Positions 7,506 through 24,207 of a stretch of DNA of 64,000 bases are shown piece after piece. A program made the translations under genes and the position numbers. The DNA is from Candidatus Melainabacteria bacterium (GTDB lineage: Bacteria > Cyanobacteriota > Vampirovibrionia > Obscuribacterales > Obscuribacteraceae), in contig QKMZ01000006.1 of assembly GCA_003242885.1 (NCBI GenBank), positions 868,001 through 932,000 of the forward strand, given 5' to 3'. Under the pieces are notes generated by a model. The model saw only the letters and a program-made list of their open reading frames with translations. It had not been told where the DNA came from and did no database searches. Position 1 is the stretch's first letter, and every line of letters starts with the position of its first letter.

Positions 7506-7652
7506 CTGGAACCTGCCAGAAGATATCAGCGGGAGGCCTTTCCCGGGTAATTGGACATATTCCCTGTTTTGAAGCCAATTAAGTAACCAAGTAATTAACT
7601 GATAGCCATGGCTGTCAAGCGAAAATTGGCCATTGAACGCTCGGACAAGGCT

Positions 7653-7686
7653 GTAGAAGTTAAACCGTTAACGCTTTAACTTCTAC
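7653..7686. repeat. Dispersed palindromic hairpin element, copy 2
   Basis: A 34-bp inverted repeat: GTAGAAGTTAAACCG, loop TTAA, then CGCTTTAACTTCTAC. Fourteen of 15 arm positions pair. Relative to copies 3 and 4 the arm changed from GGTTAACC to GTTAAAC, and the opposite arm changed to match, which preserves the stem. It lies between the 3' end of tRNA-Val (minus strand) and the start of the CHASE2 gene. Confidence 0.8.
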
Positions 7687-7790
7687 AATCTCGTGTTCTT
7701 GACAATCATAAAAGCACCGAAAGGAAAAGCCGGCAGACCTTCAGGCGGTGTCCGATAAATGCGCAGTGGCTGTATTTAGGTAGTAAAAAA

Positions 7791-11453: not shown

Positions 11454-11497
11454 GAGGTTTAGAAGGTTAACCGATAACGGTTAACCTTCTAAACCTC
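11454..11497. repeat. Dispersed palindromic hairpin element, copy 3 (longest, perfect)
   Basis: A perfect 20-bp inverted repeat (GAGGTTTAGAAGGTTAACCG and its reverse complement) around the loop ATAA, 44 bp in all. Each arm contains GGTTAACC, itself a palindrome, so the element also offers two spaced symmetric half-sites. It starts 16 bp after the stop of the HAS-barrel-like gene. A short pyrimidine run (TTCTTTT) follows, so it could end transcription here, but other copies lack such a run. Confidence 0.85.
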
Positions 11498-11596
11498 TTC
11501 TTTTGAGGCCAAAACTTTTGTTGTCAGTATTAGATTTCTTTTGAACTTTTTGTCCGCCGGACTCGTATTCAAATGTATGAGGTCGAGGGAACGGAT

Positions 11597-12619
11597 ATGA
11601 GTGTCAAGCGCCCAGCCGATATATCATATGAACTCGCCCAAGCGGCGTTACCCGCTCTGGTGGCTGAGTTTGGACCGGAAGCGAAAGCACGAGCCATAGT
11701 GCTCGGAAAGCTTGCGCAGAGAGAAGTAATTGTTTGTTTTCATTGCAAAGCCGAAAACAAAATACCGTCGGATGATATGCGAATGTTTTTGTGCTGCGAA
11801 TGCCGAAAGCAAATTTGGGTTACTGCAGACACGAATTTCCGCAGAGTGCGCTTGTTCTTTGTACGTCTCGGCATTATGCGATTGCAGGAAATGGGAATCT
11901 GTATCAACGCCAATCAGGCTTCCAAGTTGTTCTGTGTTTCATATGACACGGTCAGCCGATTTTACAAGCAATTGGGAATCTCTGTAATTTCTTTGTTGCC
12001 AGATCGCTCAGTGGAAGTCCCGACCAGCTTTAGCACCTCCGTTGTCTGCAGGCGTACAAGACAAACACAGGCAGAAAAAGCACCTTTCGAAGAAGAGTTT
12101 GAAATGCAAAAAAACGCTGCTGCATCCTCGGATTCGCCATTTCAAATGAGCGCTGCTGCTTCGAATTCCCCATTCTCTGAATTGGAATTGCAGATTCTGG
12201 AGATGTTAAAAGGTAAGACAGTTTCGTTAGAAGAGCTAATTACAGAAATAAGGGCCAGCAGTGCTTCTATATCGAGCGCGCTGACAATGCTCGAGTTGAG
12301 TGGAAATATTAAGGCGAGCTTTGGCAATAAGTTCTCACTTGCAAATTCTTTATGCTTGAAAGACTTGGATTGTGGGGAGAAGGAAAAGGTGATCGCCGAA
12401 AGCTTCAATCAGTTCATAAAGGACTACTTTCAGGGAATCGGCAGAAAAAATCTCCAAGTCTATTCTTCGTTCAATTGGTTCGCATTTGATCGAAATTTCT
12501 GGTCAATCGACCGTCTGAGAGACTTCTTCATTTCTTATCCCTACATTCCGTATGAAGAGATTCGCGATTTTGTGACGCCACTAAGCTTCAAGATTGTTCC
12601 GCGGTTTGATAGTTCGTAA
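11597..12619 (+). CDS. Transposase-derived zinc-ribbon/winged-helix DNA-binding protein
   Basis: 340 residues from ATG 11597, chosen for its GAGGGA site 7 nt upstream (another ATG at 11573 lacks one). Residues about 45-75 form a zinc ribbon, CFHC then CCEC, followed by RKQIWVTADTNF. This resembles the N-terminus of IS1595-type transposases (C..C, CKSCRKQFSVTTGTIF). A helix-turn-helix follows (NANQASKLFCVSYDTVSRFYKQLG). After a linker with Ala/Ser-rich near-repeats (AAASSDSPFQMS, AAASNSPFSE) comes a winged-helix-like segment (ELQILEMLKGKTVSLEELI, then SALTMLELSGNIKASFG). The DDE catalytic core of a transposase is absent and there are no flanking inverted repeats, so it looks domesticated rather than mobile. 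The target is unknown. Confidence 0.7.
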   Translation: MSVKRPADISYELAQAALPALVAEFGPEAKARAIVLGKLAQREVIVCFHCKAENKIPSDDMRMFLCCECRKQIWVTADTNFRRVRLFFVRLGIMRLQEMGICINANQASKLFCVSYDTVSRFYKQLGISVISLLPDRSVEVPTSFSTSVVCRRTRQTQAEKAPFEEEFEMQKNAAASSDSPFQMSAAASNSPFSELELQILEMLKGKTVSLEELITEIRASSASISSALTMLELSGNIKASFGNKFSLANSLCLKDLDCGEKEKVIAESFNQFIKDYFQGIGRKNLQVYSSFNWFAFDRNFWSIDRLRDFFISYPYIPYEEIRDFVTPLSFKIVPRFDSS

Positions 12620-24177: not shown

Positions 24178-24207
24178 AGAAGGTTAACCGTTATCGGTTA
24201 ACCTTCT
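24178..24207. repeat. Dispersed palindromic hairpin element, copy 4 (perfect, inverted orientation)
   Basis: AGAAGGTTAACCG, loop TTAT, then the exact reverse complement. It equals the core of copy 3 read from the other strand. It starts 6 bp after the stop of the IctB-like gene. No T-run follows on either side, so it is not a standard terminator. Confidence 0.85.

Follow-up and report, generated by a model that had tools for sequence, protein, structure and literature searches.

Four similar palindromes lie between genes in the 64,000-nt stretch of DNA analyzed here (the window; C1:868001-932000 of G000, a genome of 6.73 Mb in 17 contigs), and they raise the question of what such a dispersed element is for. 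None of them was assigned a strand. Copy 3 (11454-11497), AGAAGGTTAACCG-ATAA-CGGTTAACCTTCT, has the perfect 20-bp arms ascribed to it in a preliminary description of this DNA, and it is operator-like, with 75 bp from its end to an ATG at 11573. Copy 4 (24178-24207) has the core of copy 3, as had also been described, with TTAT instead of ATAA in the centre, and lies 6 bp past the stop codon of an O-antigen-ligase-like gene. Copy 1 (1221-1250), AGAAGGTAAACCG-ATAA-CAGTTTAACTTCC, contains mismatched pairs and is located between the elongation factor G stop codon and a terminator-like stem; copy 2 (7652-7687) is located between a CHASE2-domain gene and tRNA-Val. The arms of copy 2, TGTAGAAGTTAAACCG and CGCTTTAACTTCTACA (type GTTAAACC/GCTTTAAC), were said to differ and still to pair, which is correct apart from one mismatch and the coordinates, which are those given here. 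The claim that all four copies share the same arms holds exactly for copies 3 and 4; copies 1 and 2 are variants, although all four belong to one family. The sequence of copies 3 and 4 has two matches in the window, versus a mean of 0.00 in 100 shuffles. The genes flanking the window sites (elongation factor G, a CHASE2 sensor, a peptide transporter and an O-antigen ligase) are functionally unrelated. Direct reading of the sequence revealed no T run after the stem at any of the four copies, and the terminator-like stem behind copy 1 is a separate one, in line with the earlier view that termination is not the shared role. Furthermore, when the whole window was compared with the Rfam 15 covariance models at gathering score, only two tRNAs and no palindrome matched.

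A genome-wide search with a covariance model seeded with the first ten copies went far beyond the four copies. It yielded 18 distinct sites in G000 at E<=0.01 among the best 150 of 2802 candidates scored, a count that rests on a model trained on these sites, and thereby bore out the description of a dispersed intergenic palindrome family. Eleven of the 18, again among the best 150 of 2802 candidates, fall in C1:835-1030 kb, a 195-kb stretch that contains the window gene described below. A pattern search gave matches in 10 of 50 family genomes and none with the reversed pattern. With the arm letters left free, 46 stretches matched in 84,980 named species genomes, and 41 of them are from Melainabacteria, Obscuribacterales, Obscuribacter or two 'Cyanobacteria bacterium' assemblies; the remaining five are close to the chance expectation (about 7 by our own arithmetic). 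All named relatives are draft metagenome assemblies, and the sites of congeners are not independent counts. With a simple gene caller, 4 of the 118 copies in the DNA examined were placed within genes, each of the 4 in another genus. A match in a viral contig lies inside a coding frame and is probably due to chance. Two adjacent long hairpins with common ACTCCGAAAAA arms at C1:372.5 kb of G000 are unrelated to the palindrome family.

The gene directly behind copy 3 (11573-12619, plus strand), which the preliminary description had missed, explains the palindrome family. It encodes a putative cognate DNA-binding protein of 348 aa, and an in-frame ATG at 11597 could be its true start. The protein consists of a zinc ribbon (C55/C58/C74/C77), an HTH (about 107-140, assigned by eye), a winged helix (194-248; PF17782, E 1.9e-7) and a conserved helical C-terminus. 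When the neighbours of all sites were clustered, this one protein family was found to adjoin sites in five genomes, within and outside the genus; other recurrent neighbour families (TPR, two-component and others) were not specific. The four zinc-ribbon cysteines are invariant in the family, and 7 of 7 members match PF17782. The AlphaFold model, built from 7 sequences, reached a mean pLDDT of 63, and a Foldseek search with this model gave no match at E<=0.001, the best ones being winged helices. The family is present in 19 of 40 relatives searched, all of the same taxonomic family, and in 0 of 16 genomes outside it. Among the 40 genomes, 17 have protein and sites, 21 have neither, none has sites only, and two have the protein only (G001 and G022, where the covariance model used gave no site).

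For 60 family ORFs, we determined the strongest palindrome in the 700 bp upstream of the first CxxC codon, making no use of the site sequence. A score of at least 9 was found for 43 of the 60, a CGnTAnCG-like centre for 44, and both for 38, while the corresponding numbers among 600 control genes were 15, 17 and 1. Many of the 22 members that fail one of the two tests are in G019, G020 and G021, and for some a contig end truncates the upstream DNA. The upstream arms are private to each paralogue (for example, GAAAAAAG, GAAAGCGAAT and GGAATTTCAATT). Under the hypothesis that every paralogue recognizes a palindrome type of its own, the two remaining members of G000 are expected to be surrounded by separate arrays, which were predicted from the palindromes upstream of these members and then searched for. 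Both arrays were found. Type 2, of the member at C1:1428350, has 13 sites, 12 of them in C1:1303.8-1511.7 kb around the member and one on C13 (one site with the reversed control). Type 3, of the member at C15:803524, has 7 sites, 6 in C15:707.6-917.5 kb around the member and one on C9 (control, 0). By rough binomials, the chance of such clustering is ~4e-15 and ~1e-6, respectively. The G000 chromosome carries at least three orthogonal site arrays, each surrounding a gene for a zinc-ribbon, HTH and winged-helix protein. In G012, which belongs to another genus, four TATCCG-type palindromes are located within 11 kb around the genome's own member. In G013, by contrast, the upstream palindrome scores at least 9 for 10 of 10 members and a model-found site lies at most 1.3 kb from 8 of 10; most of these members have their own palindrome alone within about 9 kb, mostly with no second copy.

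Some G000 sites have no assigned gene (C1:377 kb, C1:1548 kb, C5:783 kb, C7, and C15:28 and 66 kb). Four of the sites (C1:377035, C5:783357, C15:28714 and C15:66218) have GTTAAACC arms and an ATAA/TTAT centre and match no member gene found in G000. Those at C5:783 kb and C15:28/66 kb lie close to the ends of contigs and may belong to one array whose gene falls in a gap. A second site class with AAAGCG arms, at C7:121788-121927 and C7:78717 of G000, is common to G002, G003 and G005. Two of its three G000 sites look decayed, and no counterpart was found in G000 to the likely reader of this class (G006 C199, G002 C134).

Orthologous site groups in congeners were linked by flank alignment. At 29 of the 31 first-array positions covered in a congener a site is present, and the sites are thus conserved in relatives. 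Because the presence of sites had been the reason for choosing the contigs, the count was repeated with one occupied site removed from each contig; 9 of 11 positions were then occupied. A site is missing in G002 at C1:845 kb and in G003 at C1:875.7 kb. At C1:845340-845452, the position without a site in G002, G000 has three side-by-side palindromes between convergent genes. In the window, the position of copy 1 is also occupied in G002, G003, G005, G006 and G007, that of copy 4 in G003, G004, G005 and G006, and that of copy 2 in G005, G006 and G007, with no site found there in G003.

At these fixed positions, the arms change in concert by species, most species having exceptions: GTTAAACC in G003, TTTGACC in G002, TTAAGCC in G004, TTAGACC in G006, TTAAACT in G007, TTAAAGC with an ATAT centre in G005, and GGTTAACC with an ATAA centre in G000. 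In the sharpest single case, the sites at C1:1383287 of G000 (GAAAAAAGACCG) and C41:5829 of G003 (GAAGTTAAACCG) occupy the same place with changed arms, and each matches the upstream palindrome of the orthologous member in its own species. Of the 49 genes in C1:830-900 kb, the window gene has the lowest conservation, with a mean identity of 49.9% to five congeners (52.7%, and then the second lowest, without G004); its neighbours mostly have 72-98%. A MatP-like candidate in the first array, a tandem ribbon-helix-helix gene, was rejected, because species with different sites have it at 99.4-99.5% identity. This gene (C1:858770-859360; 196 aa, assigned by eye) is the most conserved of the 49 genes in the region and 99.5% identical to its counterparts in G002 and G006.

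Which part of the protein changes with which part of the palindrome was analyzed by partial Mantel tests on 46 of 59 members, with weak-palindrome or odd-centre ones excluded. In these 30 tests, uncorrected and with phylogeny only partly removed, the outer arm was correlated with the zinc ribbon (p 0.001), the inner arm with the HTH and with the linker before it (both p 0.008), and the centre with the HTH (p 0.001). For the winged helix and the C-terminus, nothing at p<0.05 was detected with the palindrome distance in the same 46 members. In the two nearest clades (n=12, by eye), the members whose recognition-helix motif has Asn as its second residue have A at arm position 4 (5 of 5); the other seven members have G there in 6 of 7 cases, the exception being the window protein.

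The placement of the sites was analyzed relative to genes and to the chromosome. For the first type, 35 of 75 array sites are at most 60 bp from a gene 3' end (expected fraction, 0.18) and 4 of 75 at most 60 bp from a gene start (expected, 0.24); this count excludes eight own-operator sites and includes orthologues, which are not independent. In G000 alone, 9 of 18 sites are near a 3' end and 1 of 18 near a start by the same 60-bp limit. The positional bias toward gene ends, together with the few start-proximal sites of the first type, argues against a promoter regulon. This 3' preference does not extend to every type: it is not visible in the nine sites of types 2 and 3 (own operators excluded), of which four lie at most 60 bp from a 3' end and three at most 60 bp from a start. 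The GC skew changes sign on C4 at dnaA (C4:187249), with the opposite change near 1.30 Mb on C1, compared to 0.835-1.03 Mb for the first array and 1.30-1.51 Mb for the second, both on C1, and C15 for the third. The GC skew and the position of dnaA lend no support to an origin or terminus cluster: the first array is neither at the origin nor exactly at the terminus, and no known macrodomain was matched. In the stretches examined for a dif-like site, nothing scored above 19 of 28. ParB/parS was rejected as well, because the ParB_N domain had 0 matches anywhere in the G000 assembly; the control search was positive in 10 of 14 genomes. This leaves room for a segregation or domain role.

The preliminary description had offered three options for the palindromes: a REP-like mobile element, a stabilizer of mRNA 3' ends, and a protein site. 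The last is supported by the linked gene family, by the arrays that were predicted and then found, and by the co-change. An RNA-level 3' hairpin (a stabilizer, processing or termination element) would suit the perfect arms, the many copies just past stop codons and the weak strand signal of the G000 loops, where 8 of the 11 oriented copies have an ATAA centre when read in the direction of the upstream gene. The matched arm changes that had been noted are real, since pairing is found at 119 of the 136 arm positions that the search pattern did not fix, versus a fraction of 0.59 with the right arms shuffled. However, they do not indicate selection for a stem: the mismatches within the genus of G000 (13 G.U, 21 A.C and 17 other) show no G.U excess on the transcribed strand, and the centre is self-complementary in most copies. 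Moreover, the same element occurs upstream of family genes, the window gave no Rfam match to it, and a stem alone does not need concerted sequence change. An RNA function is therefore very improbable, and the apparent covariation more plausibly reflects the dyad symmetry of a double-stranded site evolving in step with its protein. Spread by a REP/RAYT system, suggested by dispersed intergenic palindromes near gene ends, is largely refuted: a search for a RAYT-like transposase with Y1_Tnp gave 0 matches in the site-rich G002, G004, G012 and G013, and the sites are at orthologous positions, shared at 29 of 31 covered ones. Other genomes do have Y1_Tnp matches; in G000, two Y1-transposase-like genes (C9:430549 and C1:254911) were not linked to any palindrome here.

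A different mobile origin is conceivable, with an IS1595-like transposase as the ancestor of the family and the palindromes being solo end-repeats or MITE-like elements that multiplied in the vicinity of the gene. The order of zinc ribbon and HTH is that of IS1595 transposases (by eye), 1 of 7 members matches the NCBIfam IS1595 transposase model at E 3e-5, one matches Zn_ribbon_IS1595 at 0.056, and the palindromes are locally clustered. We nevertheless consider such relics improbable, because orthologous site positions are kept while the arms change in concert, no target-site duplication is visible at two species-specific sites, and a DDE catalytic domain gave no Pfam match, with no RNase H-like sheet in the low-confidence AlphaFold model. 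The main rival is roadblock silencing, in which a repressor binds its own operator and halts elongation at many sites behind the genes of its neighbourhood. Stoperators show the same evolutionary pattern (references PMC6550527 and PMC9283540): the protein is self-coded, one site is close to its gene, many sites lie in narrow gaps between genes, and the motif changes with the protein. The 3' bias of the first-type sites and the location of copy 1 between the elongation factor G stop codon and the terminator-like stem also fit this reading. It is still unlikely, since the sites are dyad-symmetric, in contrast to the asymmetric, transcription-oriented stoperators; the arrays cover about 200 kb of core chromosome; and joint silencing is not expected for the unrelated housekeeping and transport genes that flank the sites. 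The MatP/matS-like layout, the stoperator-like evolution and the lack of ParB_N therefore lead us to rank domain marking first, roadblock silencing second and transposon relics third.

Recognition of the palindrome by the window protein is very probable on strong indirect evidence, and the binding is putative. We infer that the protein acts as a dimer, with contacts to the long palindrome made by its N-terminal zinc ribbon and HTH. One copy bound upstream of its own gene would probably mediate autoregulation, and about ten further copies would be bound, scattered over roughly 200 kb around the window gene. Paralogues elsewhere on the chromosome would follow the same scheme with their own palindrome types, resulting in several locally centred orthogonal arrays. 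Much as MatP does on matS, the bound proteins may bridge the array or mark it as one domain of the chromosome, from transcription-neutral sites mainly behind genes; this is the best explanation as a whole, and we give it about an even chance. Weighing against it are the mismatch with known macrodomains, the G013 members that lack a second copy nearby, the 3' bias that is not visible for types 2 and 3, the G000 sites with no assigned gene, the weak strand signal of the G000 centres and the 22 members that fail a palindrome test. Since protein and sites would change together, the paralogues could stay orthogonal while the system drifts quickly between species. More tentatively, and with slightly less than even probability, several domains per chromosome, each with its own orthogonal array and paralogous reader and with fast co-evolution at fixed positions, would constitute a multidomain address system. 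If true, several orthogonal arrays around their own reader genes are a natural experiment on chromosome-domain specification, and a protein that repeatedly changes specificity together with about ten fixed sites is a rare case. The co-evolution would still be unusual if the real role were silencing or if the sites were transposon relics. The putative protein-palindrome pairs are, in addition, ready-made orthogonal DNA-binding pairs.

A search of titles and abstracts of open-licence papers gave no description of this protein family or of its sites. To our knowledge, the known site-array systems (parS, matS and stoperators) occur once per replicon and are tied to the origin, the terminus or phage immunity. 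MatP is a ribbon-helix-helix protein, and parS is nearly invariant across bacteria. With ParB/parS, exemplified by the 22 parS near the origin in M. xanthus (reference PMC3899335), our system shares clustered palindromic sites, but here the genome has no ParB_N domain and the array is not at the origin. IS1595-family transposases share the zinc ribbon followed by an HTH (1 of 7 members matches the family model); in contrast, the proteins described here have a winged helix and a helical C-terminus and no recognizable DDE domain, and movement was not seen. Cluster A mycobacteriophages have 20-30 dispersed stoperators (references PMC6550527 and PMC9283540). Like the arrays described here, they encode their own protein with one site close to its gene, many of the dispersed sites are in short intergenic stretches, and the motif diverges with the protein from one relative to another; theirs is a system of phage genomes, with an unrelated protein, oriented, asymmetric 13-bp sites and one system per genome. 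According to reference PMC3330122, matS is a 13-bp site present 23 times over 800 kb at the terminus. Like MatP/matS, the arrays combine one DNA-binding protein with a symmetric site repeated about ten to twenty times over hundreds of kilobases; unlike it, they have sites of 28-44 bp, several orthogonal systems that each surround their own gene, and an unrelated protein (winged helix PF17782, with zinc ribbon and HTH by eye) of fast-changing specificity. With a self-coded reader and many fixed sites, the array system is similar to MatP/matS by its layout and to the phage stoperators by its evolution.
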